35,007 nt of DNA from Pseudomonadota bacterium (GTDB lineage Bacteria; Pseudomonadota; Gammaproteobacteria; QQUJ01): positions 1 to 35,007 of the forward strand of contig QQUJ01000015.1 in NCBI GenBank assembly GCA_008501635.1, in the 5' to 3' direction. Positions 6,794-35,007 of this stretch are shown piece by piece. Numbering within the stretch: position 1 is the first letter of the stretch; every line of letters starts with the position of its first letter. A program made the position numbers and the translations under genes. Below the pieces are notes generated by a model. The model had not been told where the DNA came from. It worked only from the letters and a program-made list of their open reading frames with translations, and did no database searches.

Positions 6794-8260
6794 GTGCTAG
6801 TACGTGCTGCCAAGAAATTATTAAGGTTTGCTCTGTCGGATGACGGATCCGTAAAAACCCGCGTAATCAGATCCGGAATATGGGTCAGTTTGGGAGAAAT
6901 GGTCGTCACTGTAATTGCAGTCGTTAAATCGATATTTCTAGCCAGGCTTTTAACGCCAGATATGTTTGGGCTGATGGGTTTGTGCGGCATGGTCATTCGG
7001 ATCATGGAAACGTTCACACGCCCTGGAATTGGCCAAGCACTGATTCAAAGGCGTTCTTCCTTTGAAGAAGCGCGGGACACGGCGTTCACATTGCTTTTCG
7101 CGCGCGGTGTGTTGCTGGCAATCTCGCTGGCTACAATTGCTCCACTCGCTGCTTGGTTTTTCGAATCTGATGAGCTGGAACGCATGATCCAAGTGATGTC
7201 GATCTTGTTCATTATTGGCGGACTCCTCAACATCAATACCATTGCACGGCAGAAAGAACTTGACTTCCGGCGACTCTCCTACCTGAATCAGTCATCCGCT
7301 TTACTAGGTAGTATAATTACCATCGTTGCCGCAATTCTGCTCCGCAATGTCTGGGCGCTTGTCATCGGACAACTCGCCACCACAGCTGTCCATACAGCAT
7401 TATCTTACTATTTTGTTCAAGGAACTCCGCGAGTCACGATAGATTGGAGAATTGCGAGAGAGCTACTCTCCTACGGTAAATTCATCACTGCATCTTCAGC
7501 CATAATATTTGTAGCATCGACCTTCGATACTGCGGTTATTGGCAAAATTCTCGGCATAGAACAATTAGGCTACTACACGCTCGCACTCACCATTGCCAAT
7601 CTAGTCACTGCAAGTATTTCGAAGCTTGTTTCGGGCATCATGATGCCTGCATATAGTAGTCTTCAGGCTGATCATGCTGCTCTTCATCGCGCCTATTTAC
7701 GCACCTTACAGCTAGTACTGCGGGTAACACTGCCTGCGACGGTCGGCGTTTTGGTAACGGCGGCATCTATCATCCATGTTGTATACGGAGAAAAATGGCT
7801 CAATGCTGTCATTCCACTCCAGATACTTGTTATCTTTGGCCTGTTTCGCGCGCTGGCCAGCATTGACGGATACCTCTTCGAAGGGATTGGACGACCTCAG
7901 ATACCTCTTTATGTAGGTCTGATACGACTCGCAATACTTGTACCGTTAATCATTCCCGCAACTATTTATTACGGTCTATTAGGAGCCGCCGCAGGCGTCA
8001 CGTTGTCGATGGCAGTTCAGTGGTTAGGATTTATGTACTTTATTAAACGGGATGTTGGAGTGTCGATAACACAAATCATCCTCATTATCGCCGACCCTCT
8101 CTGGAAATCTGCCGTAATGGGTAGTGCGGTTTATGGGCTTAGCCTGATAATCGACGGCATGACAACTATCGGCTTGCTTGGAATGATTCTTTCCGGCATT
8201 GCCGTATACGCTTCTCTGAATGTGCGAGTGATAATTCAGATAAGGCGACACGGCCTCTGA
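6794..8260 (+). CDS. Wzx-like polysaccharide flippase (MOP superfamily)
   Basis: The 488-residue polytopic membrane protein has the usual Wzx length and about 12-14 hydrophobic segments. Typical features are an N-terminal GIWVSLGEMVVTVIAV helix, ARLLTPDMFGLMGLCGMV (the 'LxPxxFGLxxL' pattern of the polysaccharide-synthesis/flippase family), and a repeated pattern in the second half (GIEQLGYYTLALTIANL). It should move undecaprenyl-linked repeat units across the inner membrane. The start is GTG 6794, with AGGA 8 bases upstream. A 240-bp gap separates it from the hydrolases; I see no gene in it. It ends convergently with the minus-strand gene, 61 bp before that gene's end. The best alternative is another MOP-family lipid-sugar exporter, which would do the same job. 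Confidence 0.9.
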   Translation: MLVRAAKKLLRFALSDDGSVKTRVIRSGIWVSLGEMVVTVIAVVKSIFLARLLTPDMFGLMGLCGMVIRIMETFTRPGIGQALIQRRSSFEEARDTAFTLLFARGVLLAISLATIAPLAAWFFESDELERMIQVMSILFIIGGLLNINTIARQKELDFRRLSYLNQSSALLGSIITIVAAILLRNVWALVIGQLATTAVHTALSYYFVQGTPRVTIDWRIARELLSYGKFITASSAIIFVASTFDTAVIGKILGIEQLGYYTLALTIANLVTASISKLVSGIMMPAYSSLQADHAALHRAYLRTLQLVLRVTLPATVGVLVTAASIIHVVYGEKWLNAVIPLQILVIFGLFRALASIDGYLFEGIGRPQIPLYVGLIRLAILVPLIIPATIYYGLLGAAAGVTLSMAVQWLGFMYFIKRDVGVSITQIILIIADPLWKSAVMGSAVYGLSLIIDGMTTIGLLGMILSGIAVYASLNVRVIIQIRRHGL

Positions 8261-13946: not shown

Positions 13947-15368
13947 TCACATATCCGGTACTTGCACACCTCCGGAAACATGCGATATCACCCACTTGAA
14001 TTTCCCGCTTCGCGAACGCTCCAACTCCTTGACCTGCGTGACCCGTACATGCACTTCGTCGCCCAGACGTTGGTGGAACTCCCTTACTAGGTGTTGCGTA
14101 TCCGCTTCGCTGTATCCAACGCCTGGTACTACACGGATTTCGATACTATCGTAGTCGTCCTGCACGATCTGGCTTGCCTCAACCGTGTGCATGGGCTTGA
14201 ACGGATGGGTCAACACCGAAGGCGAGATCATTCGACCGTCAGACAGCGCTAGGATGTCCTCTGCCTTGGTTGTTACATCTTCCATCAGGGGTAGGCCGCG
14301 TCCGCACGAGCAAGTCTGGATCTTCATCGCAGAAACGTCATTGGTCACATATCGAATCAATGGCATCCCCCGATTGTGGAGCGTCGTACAGACCATCTTG
14401 CCTGACTGTCCATTAGGGACCAGGCGATTGTCGGTGTCGAGAAACTCCGTGATTCCGTACTCTTGGCACAAGTGATGCCCTTCATGTCGGTCGCACTCCG
14501 CACTGAATACCACCCGTTCTGCAGCGGCGAGATAGTCGAACACCTGACATCGAAATGCGGATTCGATCGCATCACGTTGAAAATCGTAGAGAGTTTCTGA
14601 GGCGGAAATAACAGCGCGTAGCGGCAATTCCTCTCCAGCGGACAACAGAAAACGCGCTAGAACATAAAGAGTCGAGGGATATCCATCCAGCGCCATCGGT
14701 TGGTAGCGGCGAATCTCCGCCACGTAATGCGGTAAATTCACTGCCGACATGTGGAATGCTGAGAGCAAAAGCTGACTGTGATAATGGTTGTACCGCCAGA
14801 ACGGCGGTTTGTGTTGTTCCAGAGGTACTATCACGTTACCGCGGAGCACTGCAACGCGATCCCCGCCATGCCCAAAGTGTATCCCCGCCCACCGGTACTG
14901 GCGGTCGAGCATGGCATAGGTGAGCTCCGTCGCGTCGGTATCGTACAGCACTTCCAGGGGTGAACCCGTAGTGCCGCTTGTGTGCCCGAGTTGCAGCGAA
15001 TTCCGGTTGACGTTCCTTGCAACCAGATCGCCGAAGTTGTCGACAATTTCCTTGCGCGTCAGTACGGGCAGTTTGTGTAGGTCATCCTGGGTTCGAATAT
15101 CCTGCGGATTGACGCCGTGCTCGGCGAAGCGCCGCTGATAATACGGAACCTCAGTGTAGGCGTGCTTGATGATACCGCTCAGACGTTCGTTCTGCCAATC
15201 CTTCAACTCGGACGGCGACCACCACTGGCTCTCTTCCAGAAACTCCTGATACTCTACAAATCGCCCGCTATAGCGGTTGCGGTCCAGCCACCAACCGAAA
15301 CCGCTTACCATAAGATTCTGAAGCCCTGATGGCAGCCTGTCATAAAGGCGCTTGGCAACGGGGTTCAT
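13947..15368 (-). CDS. CapK/PaaK-like AMP-forming ligase
   Basis: The 473-residue product belongs to the phenylacetate-CoA ligase-like branch of adenylate-forming enzymes. An N-terminal helical part carries the typical YTEVPYYQRRFAEHGVNP; the ATP loop LGHTSGTTGSPLEV is at about 127-140. These are followed by the Tyr-rich region ISASETLYDFQRDAIE and a CSCGRGLPLM Cys-Arg motif, and it ends with a Lys-bearing RSRSGKFKWV. Members in capsule and EPS loci are thought to activate a carboxylate, perhaps for acylation of a sugar. The start ATG 15368 overlaps the stop of the upstream glycosyltransferase (ATGA), with AAGGTGGA directly before it, so the two are translationally coupled. The substrate acid is unknown. 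Confidence 0.87.
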   Translation of the reverse strand: MNPVAKRLYDRLPSGLQNLMVSGFGWWLDRNRYSGRFVEYQEFLEESQWWSPSELKDWQNERLSGIIKHAYTEVPYYQRRFAEHGVNPQDIRTQDDLHKLPVLTRKEIVDNFGDLVARNVNRNSLQLGHTSGTTGSPLEVLYDTDATELTYAMLDRQYRWAGIHFGHGGDRVAVLRGNVIVPLEQHKPPFWRYNHYHSQLLLSAFHMSAVNLPHYVAEIRRYQPMALDGYPSTLYVLARFLLSAGEELPLRAVISASETLYDFQRDAIESAFRCQVFDYLAAAERVVFSAECDRHEGHHLCQEYGITEFLDTDNRLVPNGQSGKMVCTTLHNRGMPLIRYVTNDVSAMKIQTCSCGRGLPLMEDVTTKAEDILALSDGRMISPSVLTHPFKPMHTVEASQIVQDDYDSIEIRVVPGVGYSEADTQHLVREFHQRLGDEVHVRVTQVKELERSRSGKFKWVISHVSGGVQVPDM

Positions 15369-20586: not shown

Positions 20587-21345
20587 ATGGATATAGTAAA
20601 GCTAATCGAGAAAACCCCTACCACGGAAGATCTGCGCGACGACCTGAAGCGGATCGCGAAGGCGCGGATCTTTTTCGCCCATCAGTCGGTGGGGGGCAAT
20701 GTTGTGGAAGGCCTCCGGGATCTGGCCCAAGTACAGGGTATCCCGCTCAAGATCTTCGAAACCGATCGACCGGGACCTGGCGAAATCCCCATCTTTTGCC
20801 ACACGCGGATCGGACGCAACAGGGACCCCGCGTCGAAGTTCGAACATTTCGCCCGGCTACTCAGGGATGGTATCGGTCAAGACGTCCAGATCGCGATATT
20901 CAAGCTTTGTTACGTGGATGTGACCGTAACTTGCGATAGCGGCGCCCTGAGCGATCGCTACCTGCAGGTATTCGATGATCTGGAGAATACCTATCCACGG
21001 TTGAAATTGGTGCATTGCACCGTGCCGCTGACCGCTCGGCGACGAGGGCTCAAGACTGTCCTGGCACGTGCCATGGGCCGCAGCGATTCGGCAATGGCTG
21101 ACAACCGGGTCCGCACGATATTCAACGACGTTCTGCGAGTCCGGTACGACAGTCACGCCAGCCTGTTCGATCTCGCATACGTGGAAACCGGCCGTGACAA
21201 ATGTCACCGCATTCAACCCGCTACGGAAGCCGAAATACCCGCCTTGAACCCCGCTTATACAGATGACGGTGGCCACCTCAATCGGCATGGACGTAAAATC
21301 GTATCAGAGGAGTTGGTTCGCACACTTGCACGGATCCTGCGGTAA
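20587..21345 (+). CDS. SGNH/GDSL hydrolase-like protein
   Basis: The 252-residue product has no signal peptide or membrane helix. Near the start, RIFFAHQSVGGNVVEGL offers Ser34 in a block I-like context (HQSVG, in place of GDS). Near the end, YTDDGGHLNRHGRKIVSE supplies the SGNH block V Asp227-x-x-His230. The central part has TVPLTARRR after a strand (LKLVHCTVPL). SGNH enzymes in polysaccharide loci add or remove O-acetyl groups or cleave esters; the lack of a signal peptide argues for cytoplasmic action on precursors. It is the first gene of the plus-strand operon, and the FemAB-like gene begins one base after its TAA. The assignment rests on the two end motifs, since the middle is divergent. 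Confidence 0.65.
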   Translation: MDIVKLIEKTPTTEDLRDDLKRIAKARIFFAHQSVGGNVVEGLRDLAQVQGIPLKIFETDRPGPGEIPIFCHTRIGRNRDPASKFEHFARLLRDGIGQDVQIAIFKLCYVDVTVTCDSGALSDRYLQVFDDLENTYPRLKLVHCTVPLTARRRGLKTVLARAMGRSDSAMADNRVRTIFNDVLRVRYDSHASLFDLAYVETGRDKCHRIQPATEAEIPALNPAYTDDGGHLNRHGRKIVSEELVRTLARILR

Positions 21346-21346
21346 T

Positions 21347-22444
21347 ATGCTCTCGCACACTATGGACAAGATGACGTCTGCCACGGAAGGGTTATCCAAC
21401 CCTCATTCCACGCCTGTTCGCGTCGAAACCTTCGACGATCCCCGCCCGGATCGATGGGATGCCTTTCTCGATGAGCACCCGGGAGGCTCCTTCTACCATC
21501 TCCATGGCTGGCAGAGTATCAACCAGAGCCACTTTGGCCACGAAACCTTTTACCTGATAGCGAAGCGTGGCGAGCTTACTCAAGGCGTTCTGCCGCTGGT
21601 GTTGCTGCGCAGCCGGCTGTTTGGCCGCATCCTCTGCTCTTTACCCTTCGTCAATTATGGTGGTGCTGTCGCCGTGGACGCCGAAACAGAGAGATGCCTG
21701 ATTGAGGAGGCCATCGCCATCAGCCAAAGGGTGCGAGCCGACTACCTGGAGGTCCGTTCACCCCATACGCTGGCGATGGATCTGCCGGTCGCTCGACACA
21801 AGGTCAGTATGACGCTGCATCTGGATGCCGATCCTGAGACGGTGTGGAAGGGATTCGCCAGCAAACACCGCACCAACATACGGCGCGTCTACAAACACGG
21901 CGTAGTCGTACAAGCGGGGGGGGCGGAGTTGTTGGGAGAATTCTATCAGGTGATTTCCGAAGCCTGGCGCTCGATGGGTACCCCGATATATCACCGACGT
22001 TATTTTCAGGAGATCATTAGCCACTATCCCAACCGCACACGCATATTCGTTTGCAGACAGGAAAACCGTCCAATTGCCGTTGCATTCAATGGTGAATTCA
22101 ACAAGGTTGTAGAGGGTCTTTGGCTAGGCTCGCGCCCCGAGGCACGGCACTTGCAGGCCAGTTACGTACTCTATTGGGAGATGATCAAGGACGCCTGTGA
22201 ACGCGGCCTTTCACGCTTTCACCTGGGGCGTTCCACAACCGAATCCGGCGGTGAGAGCTTTAAACGGAAATGGAACGCCGAATCACGGCCACTGCACTGG
22301 TACTATTACATGCCGCAGGGCGGACACATACCTCAACTCAACGTGAATAACCCTAAATATCGCCTGGCAATATCAACCTGGCGACGACTCCCGTTGTGGG
22401 TCACCACCCTGATCGGGCCATGGATCGCGCGGAGTATTCCCTAG
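21347..22444 (+). CDS. FemAB-like protein of the XrtA/PEP-CTERM-associated family (GNAT fold)
   Basis: The 365-residue product starts at ATG 21347, one base after the preceding stop. It reads GGSFYHLHGWQSINQSHFGHE, then QGVLPLVLLRSRLFGRILCSLPFVNYGG, and ends with LGRSTTESGGESFKRKWNAE, PLHWYYYMPQGGHIPQLNVNNPKYRL and RLPLWVTTLIGPWIARSIP. This order, especially the 'LGRST...FKRKW' and 'NNPKYRL...LIGP' parts, is what I know from FemAB-related proteins found with exosortase A loci. FemAB relatives transfer aminoacyl or acyl groups to amines; the true substrate in exosortase loci is not known. The longer frame from 21263 would overlap the SGNH gene by more than 80 bases and is rejected. It lies directly before the DegT aminotransferase gene, which could supply the amine. 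Confidence 0.85.
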   Translation: MLSHTMDKMTSATEGLSNPHSTPVRVETFDDPRPDRWDAFLDEHPGGSFYHLHGWQSINQSHFGHETFYLIAKRGELTQGVLPLVLLRSRLFGRILCSLPFVNYGGAVAVDAETERCLIEEAIAISQRVRADYLEVRSPHTLAMDLPVARHKVSMTLHLDADPETVWKGFASKHRTNIRRVYKHGVVVQAGGAELLGEFYQVISEAWRSMGTPIYHRRYFQEIISHYPNRTRIFVCRQENRPIAVAFNGEFNKVVEGLWLGSRPEARHLQASYVLYWEMIKDACERGLSRFHLGRSTTESGGESFKRKWNAESRPLHWYYYMPQGGHIPQLNVNNPKYRLAISTWRRLPLWVTTLIGPWIARSIP

Positions 22445-22460
22445 GAGACGGGCAGAACCG

Positions 22461-23669
22461 ATGAGCTATCTCGCACCCGCCGGCACGCCGATCAGCGCCT
22501 CGGACTTATGGCGTTGGTTGTACAGCCTCTCGGGCGCTACGAACGAGATGACACAGTTTCGCCAGACCCTGAGGCAGACGCTGCAACTTGCGGGCTGCGA
22601 GTTTGTCTCCTCGGGACGGGCCGGCATGACGTTGTTGCTCCGAACACTCCATCGAATTCGTGGCGAAACTCTACGCAATGAGGTCGTGGTACCCGGTTAC
22701 ACCTGCTACTCGGTTCCCGGATCAATAGAGAAAGCCGGACTCAAGGTGCGCGTCTGCGATATCGATCCTGTGTCACTCAGTTACGACCTGGAACAGTTGC
22801 GAAGCACCGATTTCTCGCGGGTACTGGCGATCGTCACTGCCAACCTCTACGGCATTCCCAATGACCTGCCCGCCATCGAGGCCATTGCGGCGAAACAGAA
22901 TGTCTTTCTGGTTGACGATGCGGCCCAGGCGCTTGGTGCGACCATGGCGGGGCGGTGGGTCGGCACCTTTGGCGACATCGGCCTGTTCAGCCTCGACAAG
23001 GGTAAAAACATCACCTCCCTGCAAGGCGGCATCCTCGTCACGAAACACCCCGCGATCGCTGAACCTCTGGCCGCAGCTGTCGGACGCCTTCCGCAGACCT
23101 CCAAGGTTACGACTCTCAGCTATGCAGCCAAGCTCCTGTTTTATGCTGCGCTGCTACATCCGACCCGTTATGGCATGGTGCGAAAGCTTCCCTTCCTCGA
23201 ACTGGGAAAAACTCCCTACACTACCGAGTATCCCCTTTGCGGTCTTAGTCCTGTACTGGGTGCGATGGCTCACCTGCTCTTCCAGCGCCTCGATGCTATT
23301 ACCGCGGCGCGGCGCGCAAACGGTCGCGCCCTTATAGAGGCACTTGCCGATTTACCCAACCTCCAACCAGTGATACCGCCACAGACCGCAGAACCTGTCT
23401 ACTTACGGCTGCCGATCCTTGCGGAGACTCCCCGTCAACGCGATTCCCTCCTGAATGCACTAGATGCGGCAGGAATTGGTGCCACTCCCTCCTATCCGGC
23501 TGCCGTGGCAGATATCCCGGATTTACAGGGCCGTCTGGCACCGGGGAGCTACGATACGCCCGCTGCACGCGACGTAGCCGCGCGTATCATCACCCTCCCC
23601 ACGCATCCCTATGTAACCTCCGACCATATCCGTCAAGTCCGTGGCTGCCTCAAACCCCTCCAGGCCTGA
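22461..23669 (+). CDS. DegT/DnrJ/EryC1/StrS family PLP aminotransferase
   Basis: The 402-residue product has the family pattern throughout. It contains FVSSGRAGMTLLL (phosphate-side Ser/Gly loop), VVVPGYTCYSVPGSI, NLYGIPNDLPAIEAIA, LVDDAAQALGA (the Asp that contacts the PLP ring), GDIGLFSLDKGKNITSLQGG (catalytic Lys182 by alignment with the 'KNLTTGEGG' motif) and a C-terminal small domain. Such enzymes place an amino group on a nucleotide keto sugar. RBS-like GGAG lies about 12 bases before ATG 22461. Its 3' end overlaps the start of the next GNAT gene by 29 bases. The local GC content is visibly higher than in the flanks of the window. The product sugar is unknown; the adjacent acyltransferases suggest it is then N-acylated. 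Confidence 0.88.
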   Translation: MSYLAPAGTPISASDLWRWLYSLSGATNEMTQFRQTLRQTLQLAGCEFVSSGRAGMTLLLRTLHRIRGETLRNEVVVPGYTCYSVPGSIEKAGLKVRVCDIDPVSLSYDLEQLRSTDFSRVLAIVTANLYGIPNDLPAIEAIAAKQNVFLVDDAAQALGATMAGRWVGTFGDIGLFSLDKGKNITSLQGGILVTKHPAIAEPLAAAVGRLPQTSKVTTLSYAAKLLFYAALLHPTRYGMVRKLPFLELGKTPYTTEYPLCGLSPVLGAMAHLLFQRLDAITAARRANGRALIEALADLPNLQPVIPPQTAEPVYLRLPILAETPRQRDSLLNALDAAGIGATPSYPAAVADIPDLQGRLAPGSYDTPAARDVAARIITLPTHPYVTSDHIRQVRGCLKPLQA

Positions 23670-24801
23670 GCGACCATCCGGTCACTCCATCGAGGCGTCA
23701 GCAGGGCTGCGCACCCACGTATCGCGGCGGCTGCCCGATATTCCGTTTACTCCCGAAGAGTGGAATCAACTCGCGGAGGGTTCATCCACAACGACCGTTT
23801 TTCAGACTTACGAATGGTTTGAAGGTTGGTGGAACAGCTTCGGACAAGACGGTCAGCTACTGCTGATTTCGGTATTTCGGGATGATGCACTGCTGGGCTT
23901 CGCACCACTCATGCGCCGCCCATCGTTTTTGAGTTTTGTTGCCGATACTCACTCCGACTACCTTGATTTCATCACTGGCGACAATGGGCCGTTGGTGCTT
24001 CGAGAGGTACTCAGGCATTTGATTCATCATGAGCGCTCCTGGTCGGAACTGCATCTCAGAAATATCCCTGCCTCAAGTCCTACTGTCGCGCTGCTCGAAT
24101 CGTTCTCAGTCAATGAGGATCTTTTGCTGCTGAGGGGAACCGATATGCCGTGTTTCTTGCTACAGGTTGACGGAAGTGAGGAAGACGTTCGACAGCGGGT
24201 AAGCAAGTACAGTCTCAGGCGCGCCAGCAACTATTTTAGCCGCCAAGGTCATCTCACCGTACGGACGGTTGATTCTGTTTCTGAGGGGCAGCAACTCCTA
24301 CCTGTTTTCTTCGATCAGCATATTCGGCGATGGTCGACGACGGGCACCCCCAGCCTGTTTCATGAAACGCAGAATCGGCATTTTTACAGTGAGTTGATCA
24401 CGCAGCTACTACCTCGCGGGTGGTTGCATCTATCCGTCGCCGAACTGGACGAACAACCCATCGCATTTCATTTTGGATTTGACCACGCGGGTACAATAAC
24501 CTGGTACAAACCCTCATTTGATCCCGATCACGCAGCACACTCACCGGGCAAACTCATACTGAGTCACCTCATGAACTGCGCTCTGGACAGCAATCGATCC
24601 AAGTTGGACTTTACGATCGGCGCAGAACCCTTCAAGGAGCGCTATTGCGATACGCAACGAGTCAACACTCAATACCGCGTATTCCGATCACGAATTGGGT
24701 ACTTCAATGCGCTGACGAGGGATCACGCTTATCGCAGCATACGTTGGATAGTACGAAGACTGAGACTTGCGCCTTGGCTGCATCATTGGAGACACGAATG
24801 A
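23641..24801 (+). CDS. GNAT/FemAB-like acyltransferase (BioF2-like)
   Basis: The 386-residue product contains FQTYEWFEGWWNSFGQDGQ, a helix-loop often found at the start of BioF2-like (Acetyltransf_6) proteins. It continues with RVSKYSLRRASNYFSRQG and the core acyl-CoA-binding region LHLSVAELDEQPIAFHFGF. The last part reads GKLILSHLMNCALDSNRSKLDFTIGAEPFKERYC, where 'DFTIGAEPFKERY' is a family signature. It starts at GTG 23641, inside the end of the aminotransferase gene, and its TGA overlaps the next ATG. It probably N-acylates an amino sugar. A neighbouring Met start is not available, so the exact N-terminus is uncertain. Confidence 0.8.
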   Translation: MAASNPSRPERPSGHSIEASAGLRTHVSRRLPDIPFTPEEWNQLAEGSSTTTVFQTYEWFEGWWNSFGQDGQLLLISVFRDDALLGFAPLMRRPSFLSFVADTHSDYLDFITGDNGPLVLREVLRHLIHHERSWSELHLRNIPASSPTVALLESFSVNEDLLLLRGTDMPCFLLQVDGSEEDVRQRVSKYSLRRASNYFSRQGHLTVRTVDSVSEGQQLLPVFFDQHIRRWSTTGTPSLFHETQNRHFYSELITQLLPRGWLHLSVAELDEQPIAFHFGFDHAGTITWYKPSFDPDHAAHSPGKLILSHLMNCALDSNRSKLDFTIGAEPFKERYCDTQRVNTQYRVFRSRIGYFNALTRDHAYRSIRWIVRRLRLAPWLHHWRHE

Positions 24802-25919
24802 AGGTATCGGTCGTTATACCGACCTACAATCGCGCCGACATGGTTGTGGGCGCTATTGATAGCGTGTTGACACAATCGATGGGCAGCCTGGAGATAATAG
24901 TGGTGGATGACGGTTCCACCGATAACACCACTCGGGCCCTGCTACCCTATAGAAATCGCATCAACTACATCTACACGAAGAATCAGGGTCCCGCCAGTGC
25001 CCGCAATCGTGGAATGCTTGCTGCCAAGGGCGAATACATCGCTTACCTGGATTCGGATGACATTTACCGCCCATTTAAACTTGCTTTGCAATGTGGCTTA
25101 CTGGATCAGCACCCGGACGTCGGTATGGTTTATACAGAGTTTTCAGGATTTGACGACGACGGTTACTATGACGAATGGCACCTACGCCACTATCACGCCT
25201 CCGCTTATAGCCGAGGCGGTATCACCTATGAAAAGATATTCAATGAAAGTGTACCCTTGATCGACACAGAATACGGTCGCAAGGCTCTGGCTGGAAGCGA
25301 CTCTGATTGGTTGAATCGGCGTGCGTGGTTCGGCCCACTCTACGATCAATACCTCTTTAACACCCTGGTATTTACCAACAGCATGGTATTCCGTCGATCA
25401 CTGCTGGAATCAGTAGGCCTACAGGAACCCAAATTCGGTATGTTTCACGACCTCGAGTTCGCCTTGCGTCTGTGCCGTGAGGCAACCGCCGCCTTTATCG
25501 ATGCACCCACTTACCTGTTGCGCTATCACCCCGGACAGATATCGGGAACACATAGTCACGATTTCGCCCGGCTAATGATTAACAAGCAACGGGATCTACT
25601 GCGGGTATTCCGCGCTCACACGCGATCCAGTTCCAAAGCGACGGCCATCGACCCATCTCGCACGGAACAACAGATTGCGCGTCTCTGCCGCGCTGTAGCC
25701 ATGCCGTTGCTGGCCTATGATCAAGGTGGGTCGCACGAAAATCGCTATTATCCGCGCCGTGCGCGACGATATCTTCAAGCCTGCACCCGCGCCGGCTACT
25801 CGGAACGCGCGCTTTGGGCGCTCTCTTTCATGCCGCATATCGTGCGGCGTGCAGGTTTCAAGCTCATGCGCATGACTGCCGCCGCACGGCAGCACCGCAC
25901 GCTCAGCCCGATGAAATGA
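24798..25919 (+). CDS. Glycosyltransferase family 2
   Basis: The 373-residue GT-A enzyme opens with MKVSVVIPTYNRADMVVGAID and continues with LEIIVVDDGSTDNTTRAL, NQGPASARNRGML and YIAYLDSDDIYRP (the DxD metal site). A conserved acceptor part follows, including FTNSMVFRRSLLESVG and FHDLEFALRL (the catalytic-base Glu/Asp region). The ATG at 24798 overlaps the preceding stop (ATGA), with GGAG about 8 bases upstream. The in-frame extension from 24645 lies inside the GNAT gene and is not needed. It ends with a basic tail. It probably adds one sugar to the repeat unit. Confidence 0.9.
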   Translation: MKVSVVIPTYNRADMVVGAIDSVLTQSMGSLEIIVVDDGSTDNTTRALLPYRNRINYIYTKNQGPASARNRGMLAAKGEYIAYLDSDDIYRPFKLALQCGLLDQHPDVGMVYTEFSGFDDDGYYDEWHLRHYHASAYSRGGITYEKIFNESVPLIDTEYGRKALAGSDSDWLNRRAWFGPLYDQYLFNTLVFTNSMVFRRSLLESVGLQEPKFGMFHDLEFALRLCREATAAFIDAPTYLLRYHPGQISGTHSHDFARLMINKQRDLLRVFRAHTRSSSKATAIDPSRTEQQIARLCRAVAMPLLAYDQGGSHENRYYPRRARRYLQACTRAGYSERALWALSFMPHIVRRAGFKLMRMTAAARQHRTLSPMK

Positions 25920-27085
25920 TGCAGATTGAACTAGTCAAAGCTCCTCTAGATCTGGCGCCCTTCGCGGCCGATTGGGAACAGCTTTTCAGAGCGAGGCCTC
26001 ATGAGCCTTCCCTATCTTTGGAGTGGACCAAGGCTCTGCTCGTGAATCATCTGAACCCTGCAGATGAGCCCAGCTTAGTGGTCTTCAGGCACAACGGGTC
26101 CATTTGTGCGCTACTGCCAATGGTTCAGGATACATCGTACCTTGCCGGGTTGCCTCTCTCCAGTCTGCGAGCGCTTTCGGAATGCTCTAACACCCACAGC
26201 GATCTGCTCTGTCGGCAATTGAACGAAGATTTTGTTACAGAGTTGCTCGAGGTATGTGGTACCCGTACCGCTGGCTGGGATGTCATGCGTTTCACCCGTA
26301 TCGTGGAAGATTCGGATCTGGATCGTGCCCTAAGTGGCGCCTTGTCCGTCGTAAAGTGCCGGAATCATATCAGGCTGGAGCCGCCGTCCTTCTTTCTTAC
26401 GCTGCCGGAAAGCTACGATACATACCTCAATGCCCGCAGCAGCAAATTCCGTAACTACCTTCGTCGAATGGAAAAAGGCTTACAACCACTAGGGCGGGTA
26501 CGTTTTCGCAGGACTGATTCACCCGAAGAACTCTTATCCGACTATGAAAATCTGCTCAGTGTGGAGCGGGCAAGCTGGAAACACAATCACGGCACCGCGA
26601 TCAGCGCTGTGCCTCACCAAGAGGCATTCTACGGGGAGATGGCCAAAGGCGCTCTAGAGGCTGGCCGGCTGCACCTGACGTTTCTCGATCTCGACAACAA
26701 GCCGGTTGCCTACAACTTTGGACTGGTCGCCCACGGGCGTTACTACTATTTAAAGACCAGTTTCCACGAAGCCTTCCGGCGGAACGGCGTCGCCACTGTA
26801 TCGAGAGCGTGGTTGATCCGTATGCTGATCGAGCAAGGAATACGCGAGTTCGACTTCCCAGGAGAGCCCTATCAGTGGGAGAACCAGTGGACCGACGAGC
26901 TGCGTTGGCACCGTTCCATAACTATCTTCAACGATACAGGTATGGGTCGCATATATCATTCCCTCACCCGTGTACGAGATCGGTATTTCCATCGCCAAGC
27001 TACAGCGCGAACCGTCACTTATCACAAAGCCAAATATTTGCAACCAAACAGGGGTGGTAGCAAGTGGCCAAAGTGGAAATACTGA
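25916..27085 (+). CDS. GNAT/FemAB-like acyltransferase
   Basis: The 389-residue protein begins MMQIELVKAPLDLAPFAADW, either at ATG 25916 or at the next ATG 25919; the first overlaps the glycosyltransferase stop as ATGA. It has RPHEPSLSLEWTKALL, FRNYLRRMEKGLQPLGRVRF (a basic helix typical of BioF2-like enzymes), GRLHLTFLDLDNKPVAYNFGL and DFPGEPYQWENQWTDE. This architecture matches the other GNAT genes of the cluster, though the sequence is only distantly similar. It probably acylates an amino sugar or an aminoacyl precursor. Its end overlaps the start of the next gene by 22 bases, as expected for a tightly packed operon. Confidence 0.78.
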   Translation: MMQIELVKAPLDLAPFAADWEQLFRARPHEPSLSLEWTKALLVNHLNPADEPSLVVFRHNGSICALLPMVQDTSYLAGLPLSSLRALSECSNTHSDLLCRQLNEDFVTELLEVCGTRTAGWDVMRFTRIVEDSDLDRALSGALSVVKCRNHIRLEPPSFFLTLPESYDTYLNARSSKFRNYLRRMEKGLQPLGRVRFRRTDSPEELLSDYENLLSVERASWKHNHGTAISAVPHQEAFYGEMAKGALEAGRLHLTFLDLDNKPVAYNFGLVAHGRYYYLKTSFHEAFRRNGVATVSRAWLIRMLIEQGIREFDFPGEPYQWENQWTDELRWHRSITIFNDTGMGRIYHSLTRVRDRYFHRQATARTVTYHKAKYLQPNRGGSKWPKWKY

Positions 27086-28110
27086 CCACTCTCGAAGATA
27101 TTCGTGCAATAGAACCGGCTTGGCGTGAGCTGGGACTGCATTTCCCGAATCCTCTGCTGCAGTACGAGTGGTTTATTACCTGCGCTGAGGTTCTCTATCG
27201 CCCGGAGGAAGTTCATGTTGTCGCCTTAAAACAAGCCAATAGGATCAGCGCCATAGCTCCTCTTGCGAAAATCCAGCGACGGTACTGCCAATGGCTCGAG
27301 ATTCTTGGATGTTCGCGATTATACGAACCGACAGACTTCTTGTACGAATCAGAGATTTCCCTGAGACAAACTCTCAGTGTGCTCATTCGACTCGGCTGTC
27401 CTCTCGAACTGGGCCGTATTCCTATCGCATCACCACTGATTGGGAAGCGATCGGTAGAAGTTGATCGACATGGAGTCCATGTTCGACGTCCCGGTGCTGA
27501 TTCTTGTACTTTATACTTGGACCAGGAATGGGGAGCACTGTGGAACCACATGCGTAAAAGCCGGCGCAGCGATTTCCGCCGTATTAAACGGAGAGCAGCC
27601 GACAACGGAGGGTTCCGCATGGAATGCATTCTACCAACGGTTAGCCAGGTGAAACCACTGATTGCAGAAGCCATGGAAATAGAAGCCTCCGGCTGGAAAG
27701 GTACAAAAGGACACTGTCTAAACAATGATCCTATGCTCCAGGATTTCTTCATTACATATTGCCGCCGAATGGCTGAATCCAAAGCACTATATATATTCTT
27801 ATTGAAACTCGGAGATGAGTCTGTCGCAGTGCATATAGCAGTGCGGTACGCAGAAGCACTTTGGATTCTCAAAATCGGATACAAAGAGCGTATGCGGCAT
27901 CTGTCTCCAGGTCTTTTTTTAACACTGGAGACAATTCGATTCGCAATCGAGGCGGGTCTCCGGCGATACGTATTCCTTGGATGCCATGAGGAATGGCAGA
28001 ATATCTGGCCTGTCGAATGCGGCCAGTTTGGAACTAAGATTTTTATGCCATTTTCCCTTAATGGGATCAAGGCAATCCGAGAATTAAGTACGCAATGGCT
28101 GCAGAAATAG
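27064..28110 (+). CDS. GNAT/FemAB-like acyltransferase
   Basis: The 348-residue product starts at GTG 27064, inside the end of the preceding gene. Motifs include AWRELGLHFPNPLLQYEWF, MRKSRRSDFRRIKRRAADNG (a basic helix aligned with those of its neighbours), ASGWKGTKGHCL, ALYIFLLKLGDESVAVHIAV and RRYVFLGCHEEWQNIWPV. The order is that of BioF2-like GNAT enzymes. A long frame on the opposite strand (27213-28172) is a shadow. This is the third GNAT in the operon after the FemAB-like gene; the set looks like divergent relatives that may act on different amino groups. Its acyl donor is unknown. Confidence 0.78.
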   Translation: MAKVEILTTLEDIRAIEPAWRELGLHFPNPLLQYEWFITCAEVLYRPEEVHVVALKQANRISAIAPLAKIQRRYCQWLEILGCSRLYEPTDFLYESEISLRQTLSVLIRLGCPLELGRIPIASPLIGKRSVEVDRHGVHVRRPGADSCTLYLDQEWGALWNHMRKSRRSDFRRIKRRAADNGGFRMECILPTVSQVKPLIAEAMEIEASGWKGTKGHCLNNDPMLQDFFITYCRRMAESKALYIFLLKLGDESVAVHIAVRYAEALWILKIGYKERMRHLSPGLFLTLETIRFAIEAGLRRYVFLGCHEEWQNIWPVECGQFGTKIFMPFSLNGIKAIRELSTQWLQK

Positions 28111-28226: not shown

Positions 28227-29249
28227 ATGTTTAAACTACTAATAAAGCAACTGGCTGCCCGCCTGTTATATAGTTCGGGGATGCTGTGGATCTTGATGCG
28301 CGTCAGGCTGCGCGGACGGGCTGTCGTCCTCATGTATCACCGGGTTCTGCCGGAGCCACTGTTTAGTGAGACCTTCTCACATCCTGGCATCATAGTGACC
28401 CCCGACACATTCGCGCGTCATCTTGAAGTATTACGCAGATACTTTCACCCACTCACACTTGAGGAATTCCAAGAGTGCATTGAGTTAGGACACCCCTTCC
28501 CGAGAGGCGCTTGCCTAATAACATTCGACGATGGATGGATAGATAACCACGAACATGCTCTGCCTCTGCTACGTGAACGGGGGATTCCTGCAGTTGTTTT
28601 CACGGCTACATCCTTTATCGATTCTACGAAGTGTTTTTGGCAAGAATATTTAGGATTGCTTCTTTATCACGCTATCCGTAACGGCATTCGGAGTTCTACG
28701 TTGGATGCGTACAATGTGTCACCCAGCCCAGATCAGTCGCCGTCGGACATACGTACTGTAGTTACCGGTGTTATTTCCCGTTTTCATAACGCGTCATATG
28801 AGGAAATAGACCGACTTATAGACGAATTAACTACCGAACTCCGATCCCAAGGAGATTTCACGGAAACACCATCCAAGGATCGATTCATGAACTGGGAACA
28901 GGTAGACGAAATGATATTGTCCGGCATTTCAATTGGTTCACATACTTGCAGTCATCGCGATCTTACGCGCTTGAACGACATCACAGTCATCCGTGAGTTT
29001 GAAGACTCCCGCGACCAGATCCAGAAGCACTCCGTCTGCCCCGTTTCGGCGGTCGCTTATCCCGGCGGCAAGTTCGATTTACGATCCCTCAAGGCTGCAC
29101 GGGCAAGCGGATATCGGCTCGGGTTTACAACGAAACGTGGTTTTGTCAGACCACGCGATGATCCGTTCACTATTCCTCGCTACAACATACACGAAGCGGC
29201 CACCAAAACATCCCCATTGTTCATTTGCCGCGCCTTGGGGATCTTTTAA
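28227..29249 (+). CDS. Polysaccharide deacetylase (NodB/CE4 family)
   Basis: The 340-residue protein has the CE4 motifs in order: VVLMYHRVLPE at about 33-43, the catalytic/metal pair in ITFDDGWID (Asp101-Asp102), the metal-binding His239-x3-His243 in IGSHTCSH, and VAYPGGKFDL plus RYNIHEA near the end. An N-terminal hydrophobic segment (about 1-28) could anchor it in the inner membrane. The family removes N-acetyl groups from hexosamines or peptidoglycan, and relatives are common in exosortase/EPS loci. Here it may act on the exported polymer or a precursor. The start is ATG 28227, with a weak ribosome site, 116 bases after the GNAT gene. Confidence 0.9.
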   Translation: MFKLLIKQLAARLLYSSGMLWILMRVRLRGRAVVLMYHRVLPEPLFSETFSHPGIIVTPDTFARHLEVLRRYFHPLTLEEFQECIELGHPFPRGACLITFDDGWIDNHEHALPLLRERGIPAVVFTATSFIDSTKCFWQEYLGLLLYHAIRNGIRSSTLDAYNVSPSPDQSPSDIRTVVTGVISRFHNASYEEIDRLIDELTTELRSQGDFTETPSKDRFMNWEQVDEMILSGISIGSHTCSHRDLTRLNDITVIREFEDSRDQIQKHSVCPVSAVAYPGGKFDLRSLKAARASGYRLGFTTKRGFVRPRDDPFTIPRYNIHEAATKTSPLFICRALGIF

Positions 29250-29258
29250 ATATAGGAC

Positions 29259-30467
29259 ATGACTATAGCCATGCAACGAATACTAGTTACCGACGCAGAC
29301 AGTCGGGCCGCATTGGCCATTACGCGATCTCTCGGTCGGGCAGGATTTTACGTTGGTGTTGCCCATCATACGGAATCCGGACTCGCATCGTCCTCAAAGT
29401 ATTGCCGCAAACGAATCCTCGTACCTGACGCGGTACAACATCCAGACTCTTTTGTCGACGCAGTCGACGATGCAACAAGGGCAGGAAGGTTTGATGCGGT
29501 CATTCCGGTTACCGATGTCACAACCCTTGCATTGAGCCAGGCTAGTGAAGAGGGTCGCTTCAACTGCAGGATGTGCATACCATCCCACAAAACTCTTGAA
29601 CTTGCGGCAGACAAGTACCGCATTCTGGAGATAGCTGCTAACCTCGATATCCCCGCCCCACGCAGCAGGCTTATCACCAATGCAGGTGATCTGCAAATCG
29701 ACACGGTTGATTTTCCTTTCCCTGTTGTCGTTAAGCCCACCCGATCAAGAGTGCGTAGTGGAGAACGGTGGATTTCTACTTCCGTGTTCTATGCAAATTC
29801 CTATGCCGAACTCGAACGCGAGCTCGGTTCGCTTGCTCCTGAATTCTTTCCGCTTCTCCTTCAGGAGCGAATCGTTGGATCGGGCGTCGGGGTGTTCGCA
29901 TGTTATGAGCATGGACGACCAATCGCTTTTTTCAGCCACAAACGCATCCGCGAAAAGCCTCCGTCCGGTGGCGTAAGCGTTCTTCGAGAATCAGTGCCTG
30001 TTGACCCGATCGCGGGGGAACATACCAGGAAGTTGCTCGATCACCTACAGTGGCATGGGGTTGCGATGGTTGAATATAAGCTGGATGAAAGAGATCGCAA
30101 ACTCAAGATCATGGAGGTTAACGGACGATTCTGGGGTTCCTTGCAGTTGGCCATCGACGCTGGCATGGACTTCCCTGTAATGGCTGCCGCTCTCGCTCTG
30201 GGCAATGAAGTAACCCCTATACGCTCCTATCGGACGGGTATACAAAGCCGTTGGCTCTGGGGAGACATCGACGCGCTACTCTCGTTGCTCTTCAAGTCAC
30301 CTAAAAATCTCAATTTACCACCACATCACCCAGGACGATGGGTCACGTTGCTCCATTTTTCTATACCTTGGTATCCCGGCTTAAGATATGAGGTGTTCTC
30401 AGTATCGGATTTTCGGCCATGGTTGCATGAAACCCGGCGCTGGCTATTTCCGGCACGTCGTCAATAG
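29259..30467 (+). CDS. ATP-grasp family ligase
   Basis: The 402-residue product starts RILVTDADSRAALAITRSLG, the usual pre-ATP-grasp N-terminal domain, with KYRILEIAANLDIPAPRS next. The ATP-grasp core shows PFPVVVKPTRSRVRSG and LLQERIVGSGVGVFACYEHG, and KIMEVNGRFWGSLQLAIDAG carries the Mg-binding Glu and Asn. Members make a carboxylate-amine or -thiol bond through an acyl phosphate. In this locus it could attach an amino acid to a sugar carboxyl or amino group (inference). ATG 29259 lies 10 bases after the deacetylase stop, and ATG 29271 is a possible alternative start. It is followed by a 569-bp gap. Confidence 0.83.
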   Translation: MTIAMQRILVTDADSRAALAITRSLGRAGFYVGVAHHTESGLASSSKYCRKRILVPDAVQHPDSFVDAVDDATRAGRFDAVIPVTDVTTLALSQASEEGRFNCRMCIPSHKTLELAADKYRILEIAANLDIPAPRSRLITNAGDLQIDTVDFPFPVVVKPTRSRVRSGERWISTSVFYANSYAELERELGSLAPEFFPLLLQERIVGSGVGVFACYEHGRPIAFFSHKRIREKPPSGGVSVLRESVPVDPIAGEHTRKLLDHLQWHGVAMVEYKLDERDRKLKIMEVNGRFWGSLQLAIDAGMDFPVMAAALALGNEVTPIRSYRTGIQSRWLWGDIDALLSLLFKSPKNLNLPPHHPGRWVTLLHFSIPWYPGLRYEVFSVSDFRPWLHETRRWLFPARRQ

Positions 30468-31036
30468 TCGATCACCTCACAAGAGTTGCTTCGATGTTGT
30501 TTGGCTCCGATCAACCTAACCCCGATGGTTTTCTCTGGCGCATAATCGAAATCCTATTCCATTAGTCGTATGGAGGTCCAAGACACCCATCATTACACCA
30601 AATTGGTGGGCGAAGAAGGCATTAAAACGCCACTTTTTCTGTCGTGGACATGCTGGTCTTCGACTAATGCTACAATCACAGAAAATGAACAAACAGTTGA
30701 CTGACAACTCATTAGTGTAAGTAATACGAACCCGCAAAGGTATGTATGGTAACACGGGGCTGATCAAGATAAGCAGTATTTAATGGGCATCCAATATGGA
30801 TACTACTCTCCCTAGTATCTCGCCATGCGTGCGTACTACTTGATAGGCAGAAGAGAATGTATTTTCCGAACCCCAACTGTGATGATCTACGATTTAGCAT
30901 CCTAGTCTGCGACCGGCATCAAGAAACGTGCACTAATCGTTTGTTTGTCAGCAAGTCATTGCGTTCCTAACGGTTAATGGATACGCGGGAGTGTACTTTC
31001 TTAGGTTGCGCTGCTCCAAAAAGGAATAGCTAATCT
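30468..31036. other. 569-bp gap between ATP-grasp and second deacetylase
   Basis: No recognisable gene was found in this unusually long interval. A plus-strand frame without a start is open from 30520 to 30720 (66 codons, with stretches such as ITPNWWAKKALKRHFF), but it matches nothing I know and could be chance. A TTGACT/TAATAC pair (30697-30727) might be a promoter for the downstream deacetylase and GT2 pair. The interval may hold a decayed gene or an excision scar. Confidence 0.4.
30697..30727 (+). promoter_or_regulatory. Weak candidate promoter in the 569-bp gap
   Basis: TTGACT (30697-30702) and TAATAC (30722-30727) match five of six and four of six consensus bases, but the spacer is 19 bases, longer than the optimum. 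The leader to ATG 31037 would be about 300 bases. If real, the second deacetylase and GT2 genes form their own unit. Confidence 0.22.
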
Positions 31037-32092
31037 ATGTTATGGCACGAGCATCTACGACGATCACTAAAGCTGCTTCTCATCAGCGGCCTGCAATACA
31101 GCGGACTACTCGACAGAAGACGGCGCGAAGCAATGCGCGACCACGCATTGATTCTAATGTATCACCGCGTCACTCCTAAAGGCGTCGGTGTCCCCGACTA
31201 TTCTCCGAACGGAATGTCGGTTAGACCGGATGAGTTCCGTATGCATATGAAGTTTCTTAAGCAGCACTATAATGTCGTTCCTCTATCCAGAATCGCGGCT
31301 GCCGTGCGGGGGGAGCAGTCTTTTTTAAGCACCATGTGTGCAGTCACCTTTGATGACGGTTGGCGTGATGTGTATCAATACGCCTTTCCCATTATGAAGG
31401 AACAGTCGATTCCAACGACAATATATCTCGCAACAGGCTTTATTGATGGATTGCCGTGGTTCTGGGAGGAGCGAGCTAAGTACCTTCTTGCATTACTTAA
31501 TAAGCGCGCCCGAATAGCTAGTTTCGAGACCTCCTTCAGAACCGCTACATCCGCGGACCTGTCGAGATTCGGCCTGGAGCGGATCTTGACTTTGAAACCG
31601 AGTCACTTACCCGGCTTCCTCTTGGAAAAAGGTCGCAAAATGAAGCAGTGGGAAACAAGTCGTAAAACTGCGATGATGGATATGCTCGAATCCGTGAATC
31701 GCGATCTTCTACTGGACACCGACCGCCCGTTCATGAATTGGGACGAAGTACGAGAAATGGCGCAAGCCGGTATCACCTTTGAGAACCATACCGTTAGCCA
31801 CGAAATTCTATCGGAGCTCACCCCATCGGAAGCGGAACGCACAATTCAGAGCGCCGCGACCCGTATCAGCCAAGTGCTTGGTCATACTCCGACCCATGTT
31901 GCTTATCCCTACGGCAAGTATGACGAACGGATACGTTCCCAAATGCGGCATCTAGGGGCATCTTCAGCAACAACTACACGCTCAGGTCTGGTAGGGCACA
32001 CGAGCGATCCGTACGCTTTAAATCGAGTGAATATCTGCAGTGAGATCGCAGGACCAAAGCCCTTATTTTCGTTCCTTATCCTTGGAAGCTAG
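31037..32092 (+). CDS. Polysaccharide deacetylase (NodB/CE4 family), second copy
   Basis: The 351-residue product has the same CE4 plan as the gene at 28227. It shows LILMYHRVTPK, VTFDDGWRDVYQYA with Asp106-Asp107, FENHTVSHEILSEL with His251 and His255, VAYPYGKYDERI, and a C-terminal RVNIC strand. Both have an N-terminal hydrophobic stretch, but the two proteins differ enough to be separate acquisitions or old duplicates. AAGGAA lies about 10 bases before ATG 31037. The neighbouring GT2 suggests action on the same polymer, perhaps on a different residue or in a different compartment. Confidence 0.9.
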   Translation: MLWHEHLRRSLKLLLISGLQYSGLLDRRRREAMRDHALILMYHRVTPKGVGVPDYSPNGMSVRPDEFRMHMKFLKQHYNVVPLSRIAAAVRGEQSFLSTMCAVTFDDGWRDVYQYAFPIMKEQSIPTTIYLATGFIDGLPWFWEERAKYLLALLNKRARIASFETSFRTATSADLSRFGLERILTLKPSHLPGFLLEKGRKMKQWETSRKTAMMDMLESVNRDLLLDTDRPFMNWDEVREMAQAGITFENHTVSHEILSELTPSEAERTIQSAATRISQVLGHTPTHVAYPYGKYDERIRSQMRHLGASSATTTRSGLVGHTSDPYALNRVNICSEIAGPKPLFSFLILGS

Positions 32093-34484: not shown

Positions 34485-34570
34485 AGGAGGAAATCCTTCG
34501 AAACATCTAGCAAACCGAACACGATGATACTATCCATGGGACATATCCTTGGGGGTGGAACCGACCCGCA

Positions 34571-34780
34571 TCACAAACCGCTCTCTGGCAACTTACGAAA
34601 GACGAGCAGATTTCCGTACGCAAATCGTCCAGTACGAATCCATGAAAACCACATAAAGTTTATCGCAGGTATTAAACTGGTTGGCACTGCATTCTTGGTC
34701 AACATGTACAATCCAGTAAATTGTCCGACGATACACCGTTCGGGGAGGAACTTGCGCCTTTCCAGTGCCTTGAGAAGAGC
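34571..34780 (-). pseudogene. 3' stump of a gene truncated by the right-hand IS
   Basis: On the minus strand a frame without a start codon is open from immediately inside the CTAA that borders the IS end (34781-34784) down to a TGA at 34571-34573. The 69 residues look protein-like (AVPTSLIPAINFMWFSWIR, RFAYGNLLVFRKLPESG), with hydrophobic and aromatic patches and a basic end, as at the C-terminus of a methyltransferase or glycosyltransferase. The frame has a TAG at the IS junction, so no N-terminal part is in view. The best reading is a gene whose 5' part was removed when the IS inserted. The family is not recognised, and a chance open frame cannot be excluded. It precedes the GT4 gene by about 90 bases on the same strand. 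Confidence 0.5.
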
Positions 34781-34784
34781 CTAA

Positions 34785-35007
34785 GGAACGTCTGAATAAG
34801 TGATGCAAACCAGCACGGCCGATTCAATATGTTTGTGTTTTTCATCATAAGGAGCGTTTGCAGGCAGTATTCGGCTCAACATGGGCCGTTTTCTAGCCGT
34901 TTTGTGCGCCGTTGCGGTTTATCAGGCGCACCAATCCTATGTCGGGCATCGCAATCGTCGCCGCGCCAGGTACAGATTGGTCAATGCACTCAGTACAAAC
35001 AAGGCAT
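34785..35007 (-). mobile_element. 3' end of an IS5-type insertion sequence (right copy)
   Basis: This is the inverted copy of bases 1-223. It begins with the terminal GGAACGTCTGAATAAG at its inner border and runs to the window edge. Both elements point their transposase 3' ends into the window. The inner border is CTAA, which fits the YTAR target preference of IS5 elements. The single difference from the left copy (34802) lies 17 bases inside the terminus. Full element length, outer end and target duplication lie beyond the window. Confidence 0.8.
34937..35007 (-). CDS. IS5-family transposase, C-terminal end (partial, right copy)
   Basis: The minus-strand codons are identical to those at 1-71 and end in NLYLARRRLRCPT before the TAG. 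The gene continues beyond the right edge of the window. Identical coding ends in both copies suggest recent duplication or exchange between them. Activity cannot be judged from this fragment. Confidence 0.75.
   Translation of the reverse strand, partial: ALFVLSALTNLYLARRRLRCPT

Follow-up and report, generated by a model that had tools for sequence, protein, structure and literature searches.

Why would a single exopolysaccharide locus encode four FemAB/GNAT-like transferases side by side? The question is raised by contig QQUJ01000015.1 from a gammaproteobacterium of lineage QQUJ01 (assembly GCA_008501635.1; genome size 3.93 Mb), analyzed here over its entire length of 35,007 nt (the window; contig C15). 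The original prediction for this window held that a FemAB-like gene and three BioF2-like GNAT genes are packed into one operon, interleaved with a DegT-type aminotransferase and a GT2 glycosyltransferase, and suggested that several amino groups on the repeat unit of a polysaccharide receive different acyl or aminoacyl groups. Our analysis indicates that the four genes form part of a real and conserved cassette in an exopolysaccharide locus, and that the encoded transferases are probably non-redundant. The most likely role of the cassette is that of a repeat-unit N-acylation or aminoacylation module.

All four transferases match PF13480 (Acetyltransf_6) above the gathering threshold of 22 bits: the FemAB-type protein (21347..22444, on the + strand, as are all genes of the block) at 67.8 bits, and the three others, here denoted G1 (23641..24801), G2 (25916..27085), and G3 (27064..28110), at 111, 101.3, and 86.1 bits, respectively. 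The FemAB protein additionally matches PF02388 (FemAB) at 65 bits and, at 336.8 bits, exceeds the curated cut-off (260.35 bits) of TIGR03019, the FemAB family associated with XrtA/PEP-CTERM systems. Given that the rest of the genome contains only two further PF13480 matches, the concentration of four such genes within 6.8 kb is far from chance. The DegT-type pyridoxal phosphate (PLP)-dependent aminotransferase (22461..23669; PF01041, 165.2 bits) lies between FemAB and G1, and the GT2 glycosyltransferase (24798..25919; PF00535, 111 bits) between G1 and G2. Reading through the junctions bore out the predicted coordinates and overlaps: the six frames are all open, with no internal stop; DegT and G1 overlap by 29 nt (23641-23669) and G2 and G3 by 22 nt (27064-27085), both G1 and G3 starting with GTG; and the G1/GT2 and GT2/G2 junctions are ATGA tetranucleotides at 24798 and 25916.

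The same arrangement is present in distant bacteria. Within the same class, the TIGR03019 FemAB was found in 62 of the 274 genomes sampled, and matches to the single GNATs there are weaker and scattered. A FemAB profile scan of named genomes yielded 80 loci, the closest of which come from an Ectothiorhodospiraceae metagenome-assembled genome (MAG) and several Nitrospira. The order SGNH-FemAB-DegT-G1-GT2-G2-G3, in which the first gene of the block encodes an SGNH-hydrolase-like protein (20587..21345, +), is identical between the window and a Nitrospirota locus (L096), and the full set also occurs, with DegT and G1 fused, in L173 and L174, for a total of three Nitrospirota genomes, in all of which GT2 occupies the same slot. 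A shorter version, SGNH-FemAB-DegT-G1-GT-G3, is found in five Nitrospira loci, and the gammaproteobacterial Ectothiorhodospiraceae MAG carries a shorter version as well; FemAB-DegT occurs with no GNATs in Thiodiazotropha and others, and one gammaproteobacterium (L075/L143) has a different array consisting of FemAB, three GNATs, and a DegT-like gene. Among the 42 FemAB loci with enough flanking sequence, 29 include no extra GNATs, six have one, five have two, and two have three. The recurrence of the same gene block in a second phylum gives the impression of a functional decoration kit that can be transferred, not of a set of decayed copies.

The four transferases are highly diverged from each other, with BLAST identities of ~19-24% over the main alignments (one short FemAB-G1 match reaches 28.6% over 63 residues). 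A phylogeny was proposed as a check along with the original prediction; in our maximum-likelihood tree, which comprises 59 proteins, each transferase groups with the orthologues that occupy the same position in other phyla, forming four separate clades (support 100/100 for FemAB, 98/90 for G1, 100/99 for G2 together with its L096 counterpart, and 100/100 for G3). In closely related Nitrospira pairs, the ratio of nonsynonymous to synonymous substitution rates (dN/dS) is 0.05-0.08 for FemAB, 0.17-0.35 for G1, and 0.145 for G3 (one pair), so that these three genes are under purifying selection in the Nitrospira relatives. The four transferases are thus distinct and probably non-redundant enzymes of a polysaccharide operon, with linkage to deacetylases and to an aminotransferase that is fused to one of them in relatives; to this extent, the original prediction is supported in part.

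Of all single clues to function, this fusion is the strongest. The DegT protein contains both PF01041 and the PLP-binding lysine (Lys182, in the motif DKGKNIT), which is invariant in the alignment and was also aligned with a solved aminotransferase, and it was matched to sugar aminotransferases of known structure. Both Nitrospira-family genomes contain a single stop-free frame that joins DegT to G1, matches both PF01041 and PF13480, and encodes 766 residues in one genome (L174:7756-10056, +) and 768 in the other (L173:8837-11143, -), with the DegT domain spanning residues ~4-403 and G1 following from ~406. Because the two form one polypeptide in these relatives, the fusion suggests amination followed by acylation. 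Sugar aminotransferases and N-acyltransferases are paired in nucleotide-sugar pathways, for example, QdtB and QdtC, which resemble the present case in that DegT adjoins, or is fused to, a predicted N-acyltransferase; the difference is that the window has a Fem/PF13480-type acyltransferase in place of a small GNAT or a left-handed beta-helix protein, and that a series of further Fem-type enzymes follows.

We favor, with moderate confidence, the interpretation of the block as a module for the decoration of amino sugars, part of an exopolysaccharide locus that depends on Wzx and is associated with an exosortase system. DegT would place an amino group on a sugar, and G1 would acylate or aminoacylate this amine at once. 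FemAB, G2, and G3, none of them replaceable by another, would then transfer additional N-acyl or aminoacyl groups to the lipid-linked repeat unit, with other amino sugars, or amines freed by deacetylation, as the putative acceptors. All these transfers would occur in the cytoplasm, before export. As donors, acyl-CoA and aminoacyl-tRNA are candidates, and so are acyl or aminoacyl groups supplied by the carrier protein and the AMP ligases encoded in the exosortase locus.

Structural modeling points to the Fem family. The AlphaFold2 models of G1 (predicted local distance difference test score, pLDDT, 92.3; predicted template modeling score, pTM, 0.88) and G3 (pLDDT 92.6, pTM 0.91) have as their top matches among solved structures FemX, FemA, and the aminoacyl-tRNA-dependent synthases Sbb17/Sba18, with Z scores of ~20-23 (for the FemX entries, 21.5-23.0 with G1 and 21.0-21.6 with G3), compared to ~16-18 for MprF-type enzymes and ~15 for mycothiol synthase and similar CoA-dependent tandem GNATs. 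Matches of the models to acetyltransferase effectors and N-myristoyltransferases ranked well under the Fem entries and were set aside. For neither G1 nor G3 did a search of the PDB by sequence alone reveal a convincing relative; FemAB is related by a profile match to FemX, the structure of which is known. G1 and G3 are accordingly predicted to share the double-GNAT Fem fold, such that the split between 'BioF2-like GNAT' and 'FemAB' proteins in the original prediction does not correspond to a distinction in fold. The common Fem fold does not reveal the donor, and the known transferases of this type that we compared (FemX of Weissella, FemA, Sbb17/Sba18, and DhpH-C) differ from those of the window in acting on peptidoglycan or antibiotics.

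FemX, FemA, and FemB build the pentaglycine bridge of Staphylococcus aureus stepwise, and by analogy, the four enzymes of the window might act in turn on one amine, producing a short acyl-aminoacyl or peptide-like side chain. The original prediction may hold that different substituents are placed on different amino groups, but sequential additions at one amine are allowed by the data as well. FemAB is Fem-like by family and G1 and G3 by predicted fold, the genes are tightly packed, and the lines are separate, all of which fits such a series, but nothing points to a peptide product; most relatives carry FemAB alone or with one or two GNATs, so that no fixed series is needed; and the differing residues at the Fem lysine position suggest differing chemistry among the four. 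We consider this scheme unlikely.

The Fem lysine separates the four proteins into two pairs. The FK motif of FemAB aligns with that of S. aureus FemX, and in the 59-protein alignment, the respective column contains Lys306 in FemAB, Lys332 in G1, Glu322 in G2, and Gln312 in G3; the equivalence of Lys306 and Lys332 to FemX Lys305 comes from the FK-motif alignment and PMC12945691, not from superposition. Thus, FemAB and G1 share this lysine with the FemX-type transferases, whereas G2 and G3 lack it. Glu is invariant at this position in all four G2 orthologues, and all G3 orthologues have Gln or Leu, with the surrounding motif conserved in both G2 and G3; the remaining homologues in the set retain Lys, except for a G3-like protein (Gln) and a distant protein (Ser), both from L079. 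We read the replacement as a clade-fixed divergence of two lines rather than decay, and because the lysine is absent in this clade-fixed manner, G2 and G3 may use a chemistry different from that of FemAB and G1. The same pattern could imply that only FemAB and G1 are catalytic, G2 and G3 being non-catalytic partners or regulators, considering that nearly all other homologues keep the lysine. We deem this rather improbable, given that G2 and G3 are both full length, the G3 model is confident, the neighboring motif is conserved, and the missing lysine may only mean another donor. Finally, redundancy or decay following local duplication, suggested by the side-by-side location of members of one superfamily and by the long branch of the window G3, which retains fewer clade-invariant residues than its orthologues (0.71), can be effectively dismissed because, instead of close paralogy with degraded sites, we find low sequence identity, separate cross-phylum clades, intact frames, and purifying selection in relatives.

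The genomic setting of the cassette fits the favored interpretation as an amino-sugar decoration module. Glycosyltransferase and other genes of the window resemble the exosortase-system families TIGR03087, TIGR03088, TIGR03097, TIGR03100, TIGR03101, and TIGR03108, all below the respective cut-offs. The main exosortase locus of this genome is located on another contig (C30), where PrsK, EpsB_2, chain-length determinant, and deacetylase models are all four matched above their cut-offs. The exosortase encoded there (L088:6446-8014, -) scores 88.6 bits against the EpsI domain (cut-off 42.8), 153.9-156.6 bits against XrtA (cut-off 208), and 161 bits against XrtW (cut-off 425), and hence is an exosortase of unsettled subtype. 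The same contig encodes a 90-residue acyl-carrier-like protein (L089:4684-4956, -; 57 bits to an NCBIfam carrier model, below the cut-off, and no Pfam match) that is flanked by two AMP ligases related to TIGR03098. In another locus, L092, the genes directly upstream of the cassette encode a carrier protein, a double AMP ligase, a NAD-synthase-like protein, and an exosortase (XrtW, above the cut-off). In the window, a search for a carrier-protein gene in the intervals 30468-31036 and 34485-35007 recognized none. The carrier and ligase genes of L092 and C30 show that a donor system is at hand, without tying it specifically to the cassette. A NAD-synthase-like protein is likewise encoded in the exosortase polysaccharide loci of the present genome (L089:1670-2683, -) and of a Nitrospira-family relative (L174:4618-5622, +).

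Several observations weigh against the decoration module. The two DegT-G1 fusions are 88.6% alike and come from close genomes, and so represent one evolutionary event. The extra GNATs, missing from 29 of the 42 FemAB loci, are accessory, and with the Fem lysine missing from G2 and G3, some of the four may not work by Fem-type catalysis. Furthermore, FemAB loci with extra GNATs show no significant enrichment in ligase or carrier genes relative to those lacking such GNATs (Fisher p 0.2-0.5), so that these genes provide no specific evidence on the donor. A more specific, but less probable, proposal is that the block is a transferable cassette making amino-acid or peptide-like substituents on the exopolysaccharide repeat unit: DegT would generate the amine, G1 would act next, and FemAB, G2, and G3 would extend or distribute the substituents, in which case G2 and G3 would constitute a branch of the family that is devoid of the lysine and uses another donor, for example, an acyl- or aminoacyl-S-carrier protein instead of tRNA.

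Beyond the six genes, the block extends in both directions. The FemAB ATG at 21347 is one base past the stop of the SGNH-like gene, such that the operon begins at least one gene earlier than originally predicted. The SGNH-like protein has no family match in Pfam or NCBIfam and no convincing PDB relative in a sequence-only search, yet it is kept in the same slot across phyla, including the Nitrospirota loci; it contains the motifs HQSVG and DGGH, and S34, D227, and H230 are invariant in the alignment. Downstream, the conserved block runs on into a polysaccharide deacetylase (28227..29249, +; PF01522, 81.6 bits), also found near the block in most of the Nitrospira relatives and the gammaproteobacterial one, and an ATP-grasp protein (29259..30467, +; PF15632, 37 bits), the next gene conserved in synteny; in L173 and L174, the full set is followed by one extra gene (of the TPR/VanZ type by Pfam in L174), then by the deacetylase and the ATP-grasp gene. 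A second polysaccharide deacetylase is encoded at 31037..32092 (+; PF01522, 95.7 bits). The presumed export step is represented by a MOP-type, Wzx-like flippase (6794..8260, +; NF007773, 251 bits, just under the cut-off of 273), and possible acyl activation by a PaaK-like adenylate-forming ligase (13947..15368, -; NCBIfam PaaK-like, 139.5 bits, below the cut-off). The GC content at third codon positions declines along 20587-28110, from ~0.65 in FemAB and DegT to 0.47 in G3, which suggests a mosaic origin of this segment. A promoter scan of the region yielded fewer sites than in shuffled sequence, and no promoter could be named. Elsewhere in the window, a 694-residue protein (9641-11725, -) joins a Gfo/Idh/MocA oxidoreductase and a NAD-dependent epimerase domain.

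We found no paper describing this cassette in the literature searched, nor any described activity or product of the TIGR03019 FemAB in exosortase loci. The window FemAB resembles other members of TIGR03019 in its score and in its location within an exosortase-linked exopolysaccharide locus but differs in having three more PF13480 transferases beside it. Another parallel is HfsK of Caulobacter, a tandem GNAT likened to FemX that has been suggested to function in one pathway with the deacetylase HfsH in holdfast cohesion, its reaction being unknown (PMC5362036). Both systems combine a tandem-GNAT protein with a polysaccharide deacetylase, in the case of HfsK/HfsH for the modification of an adhesive polysaccharide (PMC5362036), but there, a single GNAT, with its own c-di-GMP-linked C-terminal extension, stands against the four transferases, two deacetylases, and DegT aminotransferase of the window.

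Fem-type proteins are common in exosortase-linked polysaccharide loci, yet lack a described product in the literature searched. A four-enzyme cassette found across two phyla, together with a natural aminotransferase-acyltransferase fusion, provides a testable route to the Fem-type function in these loci. The replacement of the Fem lysine, fixed within clades, suggests a branch of Fem chemistry that we did not find described in the same literature, and the cassette also bears on the question of whether amino-acid or unusual acyl groups occur on the polysaccharides of environmental biofilms.

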